From Mariniblastus sp. (GTDB taxonomy: Bacteria; Planctomycetota; Planctomycetia; Pirellulales; Pirellulaceae), in the NCBI GenBank assembly GCA_022447555.1, contig JAKVBF010000001.1, positions 273,560-337,559 of the forward strand: a DNA stretch of 64,000 nucleotides, given 5' to 3'. Both the position numbers and the translations under genes were made by a program. A model generated the notes under the pieces. It was given only the letters and a program-made list of their open reading frames with translations. It was not told the DNA's origin and searched no databases. The first letter of the stretch is position 1. Every line of letters starts with the position of its first letter. Positions 30,139 through 36,508 of the stretch are shown here, one piece after another.

Positions 30139-31137
30139 ATGACCCAACCAAACAACCCACTTTCAGATCCCGAGCCGACCATTACCACCATCAGATCGGA
30201 CGCATCCGAACTGCCTCAGCGTACGGTGCCCGCTTGGTTGTTGTCGTTCCTGCTGCACACTCTCGTGTTGGTTTTCCTGATCTTGATTTTAAGCCGTTTT
30301 AGCGGTGGTGCCAGTAAAATCGAGAACCGAGCAGGAGGGATCGTCTTAGTCAACGCCGTTGCCACGACAACCGAATATCTCTCCGAGGGAGATGTTTCAG
30401 AGCCGTCACCCGCAGCAACGCTGCAACAGAGCCCTCCCCCCATGCCATCCGAAAAATCCCCCCCCCATTTACCCGGACTGGAGTCGAGCAACTCCGAACT
30501 TACGGGCGTAGGTCAGGATTTTGCAGAGTCGCTTTCCGGGGCCGAATCCTTACTCGATGGGACCGGCAGCCAACGGCCCATTGGGGGCGCTGTCACCACT
30601 GAGGTATTTGGAGTGAAAGGGACGGGATCCCAGTTTGTCTATGTCTTCGACCGTTCGGCCAGCATGGATGGCTATGGAGGCCGGCCGTTACGGGCTGCTA
30701 AGCAGGCTCTGCTTGAGAGCCTTGAGTCACTGGAAAAAAACCACCAGTTTCAAATCGTTTTTTATAACGATCAAACCAAAATATTCCGGCCCGAGCCGGG
30801 GGCTGCAAGGCTGGCCTTCGCAACCGATACGATGAAACAAAAAGGTGTTGGATTCGTTCAGTCGATTCGCGGTGACCGGGGCACCAACCATATGAACGCT
30901 TTAAAGGAAGCTTTGTCCTTCAAACCCGACGTCGTGTTTCTGTTGACCGATGCCGAAGGTGGATTTTCAGCTTCCGACTTGAATCGTATAAGTCGTTGGA
31001 ATTCATCAGGCGCTGTCATCAACGCGATAGAGTTCGGAGTTGGCACCTCTTCGGCATTGGACAATTCACTCAGAATATTATCCCGAGAAAATGGCGGGCA
31101 ATATACCTACAAGAATATTTTATCGTTTCGCGACTAA
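30139..31137 (+). CDS. TonB-like N-terminal membrane helix fused to a VWA (MIDAS) domain
   Basis: 332 residues. A cytoplasmic N-terminus of about 30 residues is followed by one membrane helix, VPAWLLSFLLHTLVLVFLI. It carries S36-x3-H40, the same Ser/His spacing as TonB needs in its helix to couple to ExbB/ExbD. The periplasmic part has a short Pro-rich stretch (SPPPMPSEKSPP) and then a VWA domain with a full metal site: D171-x-S173-x-S175, T249 and D271. Its five neighbours downstream encode a periplasmic helical protein, ExbB, two ExbD and a TPR protein on the same strand. I infer a proton-driven transducer whose output is a metal-dependent adhesion domain instead of the TonB C-terminus. Confidence 0.85.
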   Translation: MTQPNNPLSDPEPTITTIRSDASELPQRTVPAWLLSFLLHTLVLVFLILILSRFSGGASKIENRAGGIVLVNAVATTTEYLSEGDVSEPSPAATLQQSPPPMPSEKSPPHLPGLESSNSELTGVGQDFAESLSGAESLLDGTGSQRPIGGAVTTEVFGVKGTGSQFVYVFDRSASMDGYGGRPLRAAKQALLESLESLEKNHQFQIVFYNDQTKIFRPEPGAARLAFATDTMKQKGVGFVQSIRGDRGTNHMNALKEALSFKPDVVFLLTDAEGGFSASDLNRISRWNSSGAVINAIEFGVGTSSALDNSLRILSRENGGQYTYKNILSFRD

Positions 31138-31189
31138 ACTCGAGACGCTCGGCACCGGATCAGACATCCAAACACCTTAGGAATTCAAA

Positions 31190-32203
31190 TTGAGTAAAAA
31201 GCTGTTTCATTTTTTGATAAGCGGGTTGGGCGGGATGCTCTTAGTGGCTATCGCAGGTGGCCAAGACATCCTGATCACACAAACTGCTGACGCAACCTCC
31301 CCCACCAAGCGGCGGGGGATCATCACCCAGTGGGTCGGCAAACAAATCACACTGGAATCATCAGGGCGCGCGAGACTGGTCGATTCCGATACGGTATTAG
31401 AACTACAAACCCAATGGCCCCAGTCCTACACACAAGCACTTGAACGGATCGGACAAAAAAAATTCGGCGAAGCGGTCCCTTTATTACAAGCTGCAATCAC
31501 TGAAGAATCACGCCCATGGGCACGACGAGCTATCAGCGGCAAACTGCTGGAATGCCTTTTAAGGACCGGCAATGAGGCCGCGGCAATTGGCGAATTCGTT
31601 ACCATCACCCGAGAGGATCCGGAAACTCGTTTTTTCAATCTAGCCCCCCTACCTTGGGTCAGCAGCGTTTTCATGGGCAATATCAGCAACCAAGCCGTTG
31701 GCTGGATGGAGTCCAACGATCCGGTCGAAAAATTGATGGGCGCCGCTTGGTCAATGTCCGGAAACAGCCGTCAAATCGCCGTCGCTGCACTGAAAGAACT
31801 ATCGGAAAATGGAAATGCTTGCGTGGCCGGATTGGCCAAATCCCAGTTATGGCGCACCCAAAGCATGACCGCTAACCCTGACACCATCCAGCGTTGGGAA
31901 AGACAACTCAATAGGATGCCATCCTCCGTTCGGGCGGGTGCTTATTTAATGCTGGCCGATGCCCAAGCGAGAAATCAACTGACTGACGCGGCAGCGATCA
32001 ATCTGATGCGAATTGCCGTGCTACACCCTGAGCAACATGGTCTGGCCGCGGCCGCCTTGTACCGATGTGCTGATTTGAGGCAGAATGCAGGCCGCCCGGA
32101 CCAGAGTCGTACACTCTGGGCTGAGGTCGTTCGCAATTATGAAAACACTATTTGGGCGAAACAAGCGTCCGCCAAGTTAAACCAATCCAAATCCAAAAAT
32201 TGA
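31190..32203 (+). CDS. Secreted helical-repeat (TPR-like) protein of the ExbBD operon
   Basis: 337 residues from a TTG with AGGAA six bases before it. The signal peptide is MSKKLFHFLISGLGGMLLVAIAGG. The first mature part (ITQTADATSPTKRRGIITQWVGKQITLES) looks like a small beta domain. From residue 85 on, pairs of helices read like degenerate TPRs (ALERIGQKKFGEAVPLLQAAI, LLRTGNEAAAIGEFVTI, LYRCADLRQNAGRPDQS). It should sit in the periplasm. It follows the VWA gene by 52 bases and precedes exbB by 11, so it is part of the same operon and probably a partner of the motor. Confidence 0.75.
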   Translation: MSKKLFHFLISGLGGMLLVAIAGGQDILITQTADATSPTKRRGIITQWVGKQITLESSGRARLVDSDTVLELQTQWPQSYTQALERIGQKKFGEAVPLLQAAITEESRPWARRAISGKLLECLLRTGNEAAAIGEFVTITREDPETRFFNLAPLPWVSSVFMGNISNQAVGWMESNDPVEKLMGAAWSMSGNSRQIAVAALKELSENGNACVAGLAKSQLWRTQSMTANPDTIQRWERQLNRMPSSVRAGAYLMLADAQARNQLTDAAAINLMRIAVLHPEQHGLAAAALYRCADLRQNAGRPDQSRTLWAEVVRNYENTIWAKQASAKLNQSKSKN

Positions 32204-32214
32204 ATGGCTATTCG

Positions 32215-33003
32215 ATGATACATTTCAGGATGAAAACGTGCCGGCTGAGTTGGGCTCAACGACTGCGGGTTCCTGCACTGGGAATTTTGTTCTCCACCCT
32301 GGCAACCAACTGCTCGCAGATCATGGGGCAGGAAGAGACTGCCAGCGCATCAGAAGCACCCAGCGGTTTGATGAGCATTATCTTTTCTGGTGGCGTGGTC
32401 GGCGCCATCATGATTTTTATACTCTTGGCGCTATCCATGACCGCGGCCTACTTGATTTTTGATCATCTCATGACAATCCGTCTTAAAGATTTGATGCCCG
32501 AAGGATTGGCCGATCAAGTTCGTGACGCCTTGATTGCCGGAGATCCGAACGCCGCTCGCCAAGCCTGCAATGCAAGACCTAGTTTTCTGGCATTCGTCCT
32601 GATGCACGGAATTGCTGAATTAGAATTCGGTTGGACCGCAGTCGAAAAATCACTTGAGGATGCCTTGGCAGAGCAATCCGCAAGATTGTTTCGTAAAATT
32701 GAGTACCTTTCAGTGATCGGCAACATCGCACCAATGGTTGGCCTCCTAGGGACTGTCACTGGAATGATCATCGCGTTCCAAGAGGTCGCATCGACTCAGG
32801 GGATGGCCAGTGCGCCTCAGTTAGCTCGGGGCATTTATCAGGCGTTGATCACCACCGTGGGCGGGCTGATTGTCGCGATCCCCTCCATTGGCGCATTTGC
32901 CATTTTTCGTAATCGAATCGATCAGTTTGTCGCCGAAGCTGCCTTCGCGGCGCAGAATGTATTCGCACCGCTGCGTCGCAAAGCAAAGAGAAAGGCCGAT
33001 TGA
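32215..33003 (+). CDS. MotA/TolQ/ExbB proton channel protein with an N-terminal signal sequence
   Basis: 262 residues. After a signal-like N-terminus (RLRVPALGILFSTLATNCSQ) and a short periplasmic stretch come three membrane helices. VVGAIMIFILLALSMTAAYLIF is the first. The pore helices are SVIGNIAPMVGLLGTVTGMIIAF and GGLIVAIPSIGAFAIF, carrying the threonine and proline residues typical of TolQ/ExbB. A cytoplasmic domain lies between helices one and two. With ExbD it forms the proton-driven inner-membrane motor. An ATG five codons later is also possible. It overlaps the first ExbD gene by one base (TGATG). Confidence 0.92.
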   Translation: MIHFRMKTCRLSWAQRLRVPALGILFSTLATNCSQIMGQEETASASEAPSGLMSIIFSGGVVGAIMIFILLALSMTAAYLIFDHLMTIRLKDLMPEGLADQVRDALIAGDPNAARQACNARPSFLAFVLMHGIAELEFGWTAVEKSLEDALAEQSARLFRKIEYLSVIGNIAPMVGLLGTVTGMIIAFQEVASTQGMASAPQLARGIYQALITTVGGLIVAIPSIGAFAIFRNRIDQFVAEAAFAAQNVFAPLRRKAKRKAD

Positions 33004-33428
33004 TGAAGGCCCCAAGGTACAAGCCCAGTAAAAAATACGGTTTTAATATGACGCCGATGATCGACGTCGTGTTTCTACTCATTATCTTTTTCTTGGTATC
33101 CAGCCATTTGGCGCGCCAAGAAAATCAAATCGAAATGCGATTACCGGTTGCCAAGTCGGCCGATGACGATGTCGAGCAAGATGCGCCTCGCGTCACCGTG
33201 AATGTCAAAGAGGACGGCACGACTTGGATCGCTGGCCGGCCGGTTACCCCGGAAGTTTTGACGCAACGTCTGACGATCGCACGCGATCAACAAGGTGAAG
33301 ATTTAGAAGTTCGAATTCGAGGTAGTCGCGTGGCACCCTACGCGTTTTTTGAGCCCATCATGCTGGCCTGTACCGAATCTGGGATTTGGAATGTGACGTT
33401 TGCCGTCTATCGGGAGGATGTTCAGTGA
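33003..33428 (+). CDS. ExbD/TolR biopolymer transport protein (first copy)
   Basis: 141 residues. A basic cytoplasmic N-terminus (MKAPRYKPSKKYG) leads to the single membrane helix MTPMIDVVFLLIIFFLVSS, which contains the conserved aspartate that takes the proton. The periplasmic domain ends DLEVRIRGSRVAPYAFFEPIMLACTESG, as in ExbD/TolR. The ATG shares a base with the exbB stop, and the next gene starts inside the end of this one, so the stoichiometry of the motor is probably set by translational coupling. Confidence 0.93.
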   Translation: MKAPRYKPSKKYGFNMTPMIDVVFLLIIFFLVSSHLARQENQIEMRLPVAKSADDDVEQDAPRVTVNVKEDGTTWIAGRPVTPEVLTQRLTIARDQQGEDLEVRIRGSRVAPYAFFEPIMLACTESGIWNVTFAVYREDVQ

Positions 33429-33886
33429 AACGCCCTAGCCAAATCGTAGACCGGAAAGGTGACACCAGTATGGATGCCGCCATGACACCTATGATTGACG
33501 TGGTTTTTCTACTCTTGGTATTCTTTGTATGGACTGCCAGTTTTCAAATCATCGAGCAGATTTTGCCAAGCCAGATGTCCGCTCAAATGGGTTCCGAACC
33601 AGCCGAAGCGAACGAGCCTCCTCCCGAAGCGGATTTTGAGAATGTCGTCATTCGTATTGACTGGAATAACGAACGGCCTGCTTGGCAACTCAACGACGTT
33701 CCAGTGGAATCGCTTGAACAATTGCGGGAGCAATTGTCCGTCATTTCTGCAGTTAAAATCGACGCGCCCGTCATCCTGCATCCCGAGCAGATTGTTCCAT
33801 TGGGCGATGTGATTGAGGTTTACGATATCTCAAAACTGGCCGGTTTCCAGAAAGTGTCTTTTGCTGTTACTCCCGGGAAACTGTGA
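33425..33886 (+). CDS. ExbD/TolR biopolymer transport protein (second copy)
   Basis: 153 residues from a GTG that overlaps the first ExbD stop (GTGA) and has GGGAGG seven bases upstream. The membrane helix MTPMIDVVFLLLVFFVWTASF keeps the essential aspartate. The periplasmic part differs from copy 1, with an acidic, Pro-rich segment (SEPAEANEPPPEADFENV). Two different ExbD proteins suggest a heterodimer inside the ExbB ring. The next gene overlaps by one base. Confidence 0.92.
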   Translation: MKRPSQIVDRKGDTSMDAAMTPMIDVVFLLLVFFVWTASFQIIEQILPSQMSAQMGSEPAEANEPPPEADFENVVIRIDWNNERPAWQLNDVPVESLEQLREQLSVISAVKIDAPVILHPEQIVPLGDVIEVYDISKLAGFQKVSFAVTPGKL

Positions 33887-36393
33887 TGCAAGTAAATCGT
33901 TTCCTACTGGCATTGCTTTTCGCTTGGCTAACGGCAATGGATAGCGGCCCCTTACCCGCTCAAAAATCTAATATCGCGGACGATCTTCCGGTGATTCAGG
34001 GTCTCCGCCAACGACGTCTGTTTGACTTAGCGGACCAACTATGCCGCCAGTATTTATCCAACCCTGAGCTCGATGCGACGCAACGCGTGCAGTTGCAGCT
34101 CGAACTGATTCGAACGCTACTAGCCGAGGCGATCGCCACACCACTGGCCGAGCGGGCAGCGGTGTGGCGGCGAGTGGATTTAGCTATCACCGACTTTCGA
34201 AATGCATATCCCGATCACCCTCGCAAGCTCCTGATTGAGGTCCAACAGGCACTGGCGCATCAAACGCGAGGCAATCTTTTGGTTCAGGAGATTGCCGCGG
34301 AAATTGGAGGCCCCGCTGAAAAAGACAAGGCCCTGGTCGAACTGAGAAATGCCAGCCGCCAAATCAAACAAGTTGAATCCGAGATAGATCGATTAATCCC
34401 GGCACAGCGTGGCCGACGACTAGGAGAGCATGAGTTATCAGTCGACCAACTTTTGAACCTCCGTCGAAACCTGAGATTTCAAGAGGCTCAAACCAATTTA
34501 ATCAAAGCCCAGTTGTACGCGCCAGACGACCGACTCAATCGTCTTGACACGCTGAGTCTGGTCAGTGGCCGGCTGGATGAAGTATTACGACAATCAAATC
34601 CCGACCAGTCGCTTTGGTGGCAAGCACAAATTAAGCGAATGAAATGCTATACGCTGTTGGGTGATAACGCGGCAGCCGAAGCCGTATTCCGAGAGCTACC
34701 GCTGAAACAGCTTCCCGCTGCCCAAGCCGTTTCATTATTGGAGCAACGGACTGACGCAGCAGTCGCTTCCGGGAAAACCGAAAATGTCACTGAACTGCTG
34801 AACGCTGTTCAGCAAAACAGAAGCTCGTCACCCACGCTTCAATTATCTGTCCTTAGGCTTTACATACACCTAGCGAAGCAGGCAAGCGATCCTGCTGTCC
34901 GGTCTCAATGGCAAGGAGTCGCCTCCCAATTAACCCAGACCATTGAAACTACAAATGGGCCTTATTGGGGAAGGCGCGCCGAGTTAATCTTGATTGGCCC
35001 CACGGTCCGCTCCAATCCAAACGACGTCACAGGTGCTGCCGCCGACATGGGGACTGACTTCAACCTACTGATTCGCGTGGGCGATCAGGCGGTGCGCAAG
35101 GCCAATATGACGGATGCCATTCGAGCCTTTAAAAACGCTGCGGTTGTCGCACAAAAGAAAGGGAACGCGGAACAGTCTTTGCTTGCCAATGTGCGATTGT
35201 CTCAGGTTCACGAAAGTCGCAAGGATCATCAATTAGCAGCAGAAGTCTTGATTGCGGCAGCCCTTGAAAACACTCGTTTTCCGCTAGCCTCGGCAGCCCA
35301 TTTGCGAGGTTGCTGGAACTGGGCCCAGTTCTCTCAGCAAGACAAATCCCAAGCTCCTAAGTTCGTAGAACTCTTGGCTCAAAATCTGCAAACATGGCCG
35401 CAAGCTAAAACAGCAGATCAGGCTCGGCTCTGGGTTGCCAGTTACTACCAGTCCCAATCCGATTGGTCTCAAGCCATCGCTGCCTATCTTCAAGTCGATA
35501 TGGAGGGAGTTCGTACGTTCGAAGCTTGCCGGCAAATCGCCCAATGCTACACCGAGTTCCTGAAAATTCATCGACCCAATGAGCCCGAGACACGCGAACT
35601 CGCCCAGCAGATCATGAATCGATTTCCGGATCTCGTCAAACCGCCCCGAGCTGCCGTTCTGTTAATCGCTCAGGTCGGTCTGACTTCTAATACGCTACCC
35701 GTCGAACAGATCACGGCCATGCTCAAGCAGTTCATCCAAAGCGCCACCGATAACGAATGGGAGGCGAAACAGCGGGCACAGGCTTGGCAAATCGTTGGGC
35801 TCGCGCTTAAACCCAATACTGTCGCAGATGCTAAAACATCCATCGCAGACCTGCCAAACGAGTTAAGTCTTTTGCAGTTGTGCGTAACGGGCTTACGGCA
35901 GGCACAGGAATTCACGCCTCCGGAGCAGACAGCCAGTATTGCTGGCCTGAAAATACTCGTGGCCGCCAAAGCCCTAGCAGCATCTTCCCAAGGCTCGTCT
36001 CAAACGTATTGGCTGCTCGAGAAAGCGCGGGCCTTGCAGCAACTGGGTGAGGATACTACAGCCATCGAGATACTTCGCAAACTCACCGTAGAAAAACCTA
36101 AGTCGCAAGAGATTCAATTGCGATTAGGTCGCTCATTATCAAAGGTAGGCCCGGGCTCCGAGGAGGCACTTCAGCAATGGCGCCGGATTGCGACCCAAGT
36201 GAGACCTCAGTCAACTGCCTGGTTCGAGGCTAAATTGAACGTAGCCAAAACACTTGCTGCCGCGGGACAGGACCAGAAGGCATTGGAAATGCTCCAATAC
36301 ATGAACGCTATCCCTCCTGGGTGGAGCCAGTCTCTCCTAAAAGCCGAATTCGATAAACTGCTCATCCAGTTAAAAAAAGAAGCTGCTGGTTAA
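33886..36393 (+). CDS. Large secreted TPR-type protein of the ExbBD operon
   Basis: 835 residues. The signal peptide is MQVNRFLLALLFAWLTAMDSG. The rest is almost wholly helical repeats with TPR-like spacing (RQRRLFDLADQLCRQYLSN, LLGDNAAAEAVFRELP, LWVASYYQSQSDWSQAIAAYLQVD, EKARALQQLGEDTTAIEILRKL, LAAAGQDQKALEMLQYM). It should be a periplasmic or outer-membrane-associated scaffold. The ATG shares a base with the second ExbD stop; a GTG directly before it is also in frame. It is the last gene of the operon and is followed by a strong terminator. Confidence 0.85.
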   Translation: MQVNRFLLALLFAWLTAMDSGPLPAQKSNIADDLPVIQGLRQRRLFDLADQLCRQYLSNPELDATQRVQLQLELIRTLLAEAIATPLAERAAVWRRVDLAITDFRNAYPDHPRKLLIEVQQALAHQTRGNLLVQEIAAEIGGPAEKDKALVELRNASRQIKQVESEIDRLIPAQRGRRLGEHELSVDQLLNLRRNLRFQEAQTNLIKAQLYAPDDRLNRLDTLSLVSGRLDEVLRQSNPDQSLWWQAQIKRMKCYTLLGDNAAAEAVFRELPLKQLPAAQAVSLLEQRTDAAVASGKTENVTELLNAVQQNRSSSPTLQLSVLRLYIHLAKQASDPAVRSQWQGVASQLTQTIETTNGPYWGRRAELILIGPTVRSNPNDVTGAAADMGTDFNLLIRVGDQAVRKANMTDAIRAFKNAAVVAQKKGNAEQSLLANVRLSQVHESRKDHQLAAEVLIAAALENTRFPLASAAHLRGCWNWAQFSQQDKSQAPKFVELLAQNLQTWPQAKTADQARLWVASYYQSQSDWSQAIAAYLQVDMEGVRTFEACRQIAQCYTEFLKIHRPNEPETRELAQQIMNRFPDLVKPPRAAVLLIAQVGLTSNTLPVEQITAMLKQFIQSATDNEWEAKQRAQAWQIVGLALKPNTVADAKTSIADLPNELSLLQLCVTGLRQAQEFTPPEQTASIAGLKILVAAKALAASSQGSSQTYWLLEKARALQQLGEDTTAIEILRKLTVEKPKSQEIQLRLGRSLSKVGPGSEEALQQWRRIATQVRPQSTAWFEAKLNVAKTLAAAGQDQKALEMLQYMNAIPPGWSQSLLKAEFDKLLIQLKKEAAG

Positions 36394-36463: not shown

Positions 36464-36508
36464 AAAAAAAATGGCCGCCAGAGTCTCTCCGGCAGCCATC
36501 TTTTTTTT
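36464..36508. terminator. Strong bidirectional terminator
   Basis: An A-run, then ATGGCCGCCAGAG pairing with CTCCGGCAGCCAT (11 of 13 pairs) around a TCT loop, then eight T. It ends the ExbBD/TPR operon on the plus strand and the secreted-protein gene on the minus strand. Confidence 0.9.

Follow-up and report, generated by a model that had tools for sequence, protein, structure and literature searches.

We analysed a 64,000-nucleotide stretch of contig JAKVBF010000001.1 (assembly GCA_022447555.1), referred to throughout as the window, from a planctomycete of the family Pirellulaceae close to Mariniblastus; its nearest named loci (L118 and L119) encode VWA proteins 79 and 77% identical to the one considered here. 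At positions 30139–36393, open reading frame calls and Pfam matches delineate an operon of six genes on the + strand, which encode, in order, a protein with a von Willebrand factor A (VWA) domain, a repeat protein, ExbB, ExbD1, ExbD2, and a TPR protein. This is the composition given in a preliminary description drawn from the DNA letters alone, with the qualification that both repeat proteins (genes 2 and 6) match TPR models weakly, under the Pfam cut-off. Force transducers built of a transmembrane helix, a linker, and a vWA domain have been described in bacteria of the Planctomycetes–Verrucomicrobia–Chlamydiae (PVC) group by Williams-Jones et al. 2025 (PMC12204202, section 8, Fig. 4a,b), and the six-gene operon is a new member of this class as those parts of the paper define it.

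The remaining Pfam scores were 27 bits for VWA_2 (exactly the cut-off), 92.3 bits for MotA_ExbB, and 83.1 and 78.7 bits for the two ExbD matches. Gaps of 52 and 11 bases separate gene 1 from gene 2 and gene 2 from ExbB, while the last four genes overlap by 1, 4, and 1 bases, within the 1–4 bases first described. The terminator proposed to close the operon was recovered as a hairpin followed by a U run, which is not listed by a simple consensus terminator scan. The exported status of genes 2 and 6 is a reading of their N-termini by eye, and a search of plasmid records for a similar gene cluster returned no match. The features are as follows.

30139..31137, +: VWA force transducer, 332 aa (open reading frame, Pfam, homologues, AlphaFold2)
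30232..30297, +: transmembrane helix, residues 32–53 (AlphaFold2), with S36-x3-H40 at 30244–30258
30298..30588, +: disordered linker, residues 54–150, 97 residues with 10 Pro (AlphaFold2 and alignment)
30328..30351, +: putative motor-box-like strand, residues 64–71 (RAGGIVLV; alignment of 80)
30592..31128, +: VWA domain with metal-ion-dependent adhesion site (MIDAS) residues D171, S173, S175, T249, D271 (Pfam, alignment, AlphaFold2, fold search)
31190..32203, +: exported repeat protein (gene 2), 337 aa; TTG start and signal sequence assigned by eye
32215..33003, +: ExbB/TolQ-like motor subunit, 262 aa from ATG (Pfam); T180 and T214 conserved
33003..33428, +: ExbD1 (TolR-like), channel Asp D21 conserved (Pfam)
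33425..33886, +: ExbD2 (TolR-like), channel Asp D25 conserved (Pfam); alignment numbering is that of the protein starting at 33425
33886..36393, +: exported TPR-type protein (gene 6), 835 aa; signal sequence by eye
36471..36508, +: terminator hairpin and U run, folding energy −16 kcal/mol, z −2.85

Conservation of the transducer and its motor

The strongest signal in the operon lies in the helix of the VWA protein. In our main alignment, composed of the 80 closest homologues from named genomes, the S-x3-H pair initially noted at S36 and H40 is identical in all 80 sequences, i.e., it does not vary freely among orthologues, and no other position between residues 28 and 59 is invariant (next come G57 in 72/80, A32 in 67/80, and W33 in 65/80). 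In a set of 36 members whose columns average 32% identity, only S36 and H40 are invariant before residue 158. The metal site was likewise complete as first read, with all five MIDAS residues present in 80/80 homologues. A further set of 40 loci plus the window, drawn from the family VWA matches and overlapping the set of 80, retained the Ser/His pair in 41/41 members and the MIDAS in 40/41, the exception being a Ser that replaces the Thr in L063. Across the phylum, VWA matches were found in 245 of 294 genomes; most of the weaker ones begin beyond the helix and probably represent ordinary VWA proteins, while the best 30 loci carry Ser and His at the aligned positions in 28 cases (absent in L223 and L224).

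In the AlphaFold2 model of the VWA protein, a single helix (residues 32–53) is followed by a linker of low confidence and, starting near residue 152, by a VWA fold, for which most ten-residue blocks had a per-residue confidence (pLDDT) of 92–97 and three of 76–85. The linker had been described as a short, Pro-rich periplasmic stretch: it is Pro-rich, but it is not short, and its median length across the 80 homologues is 102 residues. At 0.35 nm per residue, a linker of this length is enough to span the periplasm. After the helix, a conserved R-x-x-G-I-V-L-V stretch, hydrophobic over residues 68–71 and with hydrophobic residues at positions 68, 69, and 70 in 79, 74, and 78 of the 80 homologues, resembles at the level of sequence the motor-box strand of TolA and TonB; the AlphaFold2 model has no strand there. 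Seven residues after the His, where the spacing of E. coli TonB would place the Leu of the published SHLS motif, Leu is found in 61/80 homologues. Profile comparison of the VWA protein with Protein Data Bank chains yielded borderline matches to three TolA chains (E = 0.0097, 0.011, and 0.013), and S and H align in the one VWA–TolA profile alignment printed. Structural searches with the VWA model returned inter-alpha-trypsin inhibitor heavy chains and other VWA domains as best matches, with BatB at rank 24. The term "adhesion-type" used for this protein in the preliminary description refers to its fold only.

On the motor side, the channel Asp is kept in all 57 ExbD1 and all 53 ExbD2 matches over 140 bits, and ExbB T180 and T214 are present in 30/30 members. 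Along with the invariant Ser/His pair and the motor-box-like stretch, the ExbD Asp supports the original view of gene 1 as a TonB-like, motor-coupled transducer ending in a VWA domain. Gene 2 is modelled as a small beta domain (residues 26–73) followed by a TPR-like helical solenoid (residues 78–336), with a mean pLDDT of 92.7, a predicted architecture that suits an adaptor. Fold searches with this model matched generic TPR solenoids at low TM-scores and hence gave no functional hint.

Linkage and distribution

VWA and ExbB matches were each obtained in all 149 family genomes searched, although the weaker ones in both cases may be paralogues. We then evaluated linkage from both sides. Starting from the 80 VWA loci, which as closest homologues are a choice favouring linkage, ExbB lies downstream in 58 and is absent in 17, and five loci are cut off too soon. 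Starting from the 137 of 149 genomes with a listed ExbB match of at least 205 bits, a VWA gene lies within 5 kb upstream in 64 among the matches listed, in 64 there is none, and nine have no listed VWA match. The linkage is thus frequent but not universal, and the possibility raised at the outset, that the VWA gene is often found without ExbB/ExbD, holds in part.

VWA copies without ExbB in the examined stretch nevertheless keep the Ser/His pair in 19/19 cases (including L067, which ends at a contig edge), which favours coupling in trans over a different role. A repeat gene resembling gene 2 or gene 6 also lies downstream in 14 of the 17 unlinked loci. Among these 14, 11 carry a gene-2-like gene (8 of them at just 70–108 bits) and three more have a TPR gene directly downstream (L175, L176, and L190); L197 carries both types. 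The other three of the 17, L123, L132, and L133, carry neither. Together with the retained Ser/His pair, this pattern suggests an association of the repeat proteins with the VWA protein, and a motor able to serve transducers whose genes lie at other sites. Several ExbB orthologues (e.g., L082–L084) are found with none of the remaining operon genes, and two genomes outside the taxonomic class display the order VWA-ExbB-ExbD without gene 2 (L220 and L221).

Related loci in the source genome

The source genome contains seven MotA/ExbB matches and, besides the window, four loci in which ExbD adjoins ExbB (L098–L101). It also encodes two more VWA transducer-like proteins, both with an S-x3-H helix and a MIDAS (L073:9983-10990 and L229:6053-7231, both on the − strand), the first of which adjoins a divergent operon reading by eye as MoxR/DUF58/Bat-like. 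Locus L098:3104-8651 (−) is a paralogous cluster in the order gene-2-like (weak, 26 bits)-ExbB-ExbD-ExbD-TPR with no adjoining VWA gene, and L099:2796-9143 (+) has the order TPR (1068 aa)-repeat protein-ExbB-ExbD-ExbD with no transducer gene recognised nearby. At L101:5465-10440 (−), ExbB-ExbD-ExbD are accompanied by two proteins with no Pfam match, a membrane protein of 292 aa that lacks S-x3-H and a protein of 571 aa, possibly another type of motor client.

The fourth locus, L100:3985-10482 (contig C62 of the same genome, 222984-229481), is a TPR-ExbB-ExbD-P0007 operon. P0007, of 668 aa, has the helix VILSVAAHILLL (S59-x3-H63) after a further hydrophobic stretch, and its C-terminal part matches SQHop_cyclase_C at 26.7 bits against a cut-off of 26.1. 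Among the best 30 loci of this type (own genome included), hereafter toroid loci, S and H are present in 30/30, a same-strand ExbD adjoins in 30/30, and SQHop_cyclase_C matches 30/30 members at E = 0.01 or better. The corresponding profile matched squalene-hopene cyclase (E = 3e-5) and one unrelated-looking cilia protein (E = 0.0015) among Protein Data Bank chains, along with borderline TolA chains (E = 0.017–0.036).

Toroid matches occur in every one of the 149 family genomes, with the lower-scoring ones often covering just the C-terminal part, and in 142/149 genomes in a phylum-wide search; four genomes outside the taxonomic class, chosen for their many copies, contain 20–35 toroid-matched stretches each. 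Out of 71 toroid open reading frames from 58 loci, among which there are close paralogues, 54 have a hydrophobic stretch and 37 have S-x3-H inside it, according to a filter set after examples had been seen; counting again gave 36 (33 different helix sequences), one neighbouring frame having been counted twice. With the same filter, S–H offsets of 1, 2, 3, 5, 6, 7, and 8 gave 1, 1, 3, 1, 2, 1, and 7 frames, H–S gave at most 3 at any offset, and A–H at offset 2 gave 15. Eight of 30 phylum toroid loci have a same-strand ExbD (two of the family, six of the class) and one has a weak ExbB match only, while the other 21 have neither within the short flanks examined. Literature searches, whose coverage did not extend to most subscription journals and preprints, found no description of a toroid-ended transducer, and the whole words squalene, toroid, TED, prenyl, and terpen are absent from the main text of PMC12204202, as distinct from its supplement. 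It is an evenly balanced proposition that planctomycetes use one motor-plug module (S-x3-H helix and linker) with interchangeable ends, namely the VWA domain and a squalene-hopene-cyclase-related domain expected to form an alpha/alpha toroid. If so, one motor set would drive a large repertoire of different envelope tools.

Discussion

Taken together, we consider it probable that the six genes specify an envelope machine that is driven by the proton motive force and belongs to the vWA force transducer class. ExbB would form a ring around a core made of a heterologous ExbD1/ExbD2 pair, both members of which have the proton-carrying Asp, and the VWA protein would dock outside this ring through its S36-x3-H40 helix, possibly lending residues 64–71 as a strand to an ExbD domain. 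The flexible linker of about 100 residues would carry the protein across the periplasm, where the VWA domain may grip a periplasmic or outer-membrane partner through the MIDAS metal site, and motor cycles may pull on or release this contact, in the manner of TolA and TolB-Pal. As for the two exported repeat proteins, they likely serve the VWA domain in the periplasm as partners or adaptors. The motor part of this scheme follows from the Ton/Tol family; the VWA grip and its partner are inferred.

Several observations weigh against such a machine. At ExbB residue 209 (window positions 32839–32841), which we take to correspond to the conserved Glu176 of the E. coli protein, the 30 members have Gln (22), Leu (6), His (1), or Glu (1). 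Eleven residues after the His, at the position taken as that of the last Ser of the published SHLS motif, Ser is found in just 1/80 homologues. The TolA profile matches are borderline, with composition bias accounting for about half of the score, and a helix-only profile gave 0 matches to Protein Data Bank chains at E up to 10, so that the likeness of the helix to TolA and TonB consists of spacing and invariance rather than demonstrated sequence homology. Finally, roughly half of the ExbB orthologues lack an adjoining VWA gene among the matches listed, and clusters of the order gene2-ExbB-ExbD-ExbD-TPR also occur without VWA, including in the same genus (L104 and L105).

An unlikely but credible alternative is a Tol-Pal substitute acting during division to stabilise or constrict the outer membrane, in which the VWA protein would replace TolA and gene 2 would replace CpoB. 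The best NCBIfam models are TolQ for ExbB and TolR for both ExbDs, gene 2 has weak YbgF/CpoB matches, and the presence of a VWA match in every family genome would suit such a role. In addition, the sole OmpA-domain match found in the genome (L228:889-1845, + strand; contig C12, OmpA domain at 395367-395648) is a Pal-like protein, encoded elsewhere than the operon, whose N-terminus reads by eye as lipoprotein-type and which has a coiled-coil-like stretch. However, all of these NCBIfam scores are far under the curated cut-offs, the gene 2 matches are of a generic TPR kind, and neither tolB nor pal is found among the six operon genes, no genome search for TolB having been made.

The pairing of ExbB/ExbD with an S-x3-H helix could also be read as a TonB variant that serves uptake by opening outer-membrane receptors, to which it would bind through its VWA domain, but this reading appears improbable. 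Neither TonB_C nor a Plug-domain receptor had a match in the source genome (97.5% complete), while E. coli, Caulobacter, and Bacteroides controls were positive for both. Plug was also without a match in any of 6 genomes of the genus and, at the level of the family, was found in 86/149 genomes and had no match in 63/149. A role at TonB-dependent receptors as the general role was accordingly rejected. VWA and ExbB matches nonetheless occur in all 149 family genomes (the possibility of paralogues among the weaker ones noted above applies here too), and the machine is probably independent of these receptors.

We give similarly little credence to an adhesion or gliding device in which the motor exposes or unmasks the VWA domain, as proposed for CglB-type adhesins. 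The VWA fold with its complete MIDAS is compatible with this role, and gliding is suggested as a possibility in the section of PMC12204202 on the vWA class; however, a linker of about 100 residues ties the domain to the inner membrane, and VWA matches extend to every genome of a family that is mostly non-gliding. Lastly, that S-x3-H is incidental and gene 1 an ordinary Bat-like membrane-anchored protein merely adjoining ExbB/ExbD is hardly plausible: VWA genes are often unlinked from ExbB and one paralogue adjoins the MoxR and DUF58-like operon mentioned above, but Ser and His are the sole invariant residues of the helix region and persist in all 19 copies without ExbB in the examined stretch.

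Ton and Tol-Pal are the main proton-driven motors known to act on the outer membrane. The same motor with a metal-dependent VWA grip, and with a homologue in every examined genome of the family, would show that the planctomycete envelope is worked by different tools, and the toroid-ended relatives hint at a range of transducer ends that extends beyond TonB, TolA, and vWA. Overall, the interest of the operon lies in its strict conservation, its family-wide presence irrespective of TonB-dependent receptors, its separable repeat partners, and these toroid-ended relatives, and its invariant motor-contact and metal residues provide exact sites for mutants.

Compared to known systems, the operon shares with TolA of Tol-Pal an S-x3-H helix, a post-helix strand, a long linker, a TolQ/TolR-like motor, and a borderline profile match, but here a VWA domain replaces the TolA C-terminal domain and tolB and pal are missing from the operon. 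It resembles TonB with ExbB/ExbD in motor type and helix motif, and differs in that neither a TonB_C domain nor a Plug-type receptor was found in the source genome. BatA/BatB-type proteins likewise present a membrane-anchored VWA domain, and BatB is among the structural matches, whereas this operon lacks MoxR/DUF58 and has ExbB/ExbD. The TPH-vWA proteins (PMC12204202, Fig. 4c,d) also combine a vWA domain with an adjoining tolQ-like gene; as presented there, they have a TolR-like helix with Asp and neither SHLS nor tolR/exbD, in contrast to the Ser/His pair and two ExbDs found here.

The closest counterpart is the vWA class itself, so the statement in the preliminary description that no VWA-ended TonB-type system had been described does not hold: section 8 of PMC12204202 both describes the class and models its complex with AlphaFold3. 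The available portion of PMC2754498 does not describe this class, and a term search of the main text of a 2026 review (PMC12905483) found none of vWA, von Willebrand, or Planctomycet. As outlined in PMC12204202, the class is characterised by an SHLS helix (in "many", not all) that would bind the motor edge through its His, a motor box, a linker of ~100 residues, and a vWA end, its genes adjoin TPR, tolQ-like, and two tolR-like genes, and its function is stated as unknown, with gliding mentioned as a possibility. The operon has the transmembrane helix with Ser/His, the motor-box-like strand, the linker of ~100 residues, the vWA end, and the tolQ-like, two tolR-like, and TPR genes. It departs from that account in three respects: the VWA gene comes first, upstream of the motor, where the published vWA gene is often downstream of the motor genes; there are two repeat proteins against one TPR gene mentioned; and Ser is rare at the position taken as that of the last Ser of SHLS. 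With regard to the class as described in that section, these differences are variations within it.

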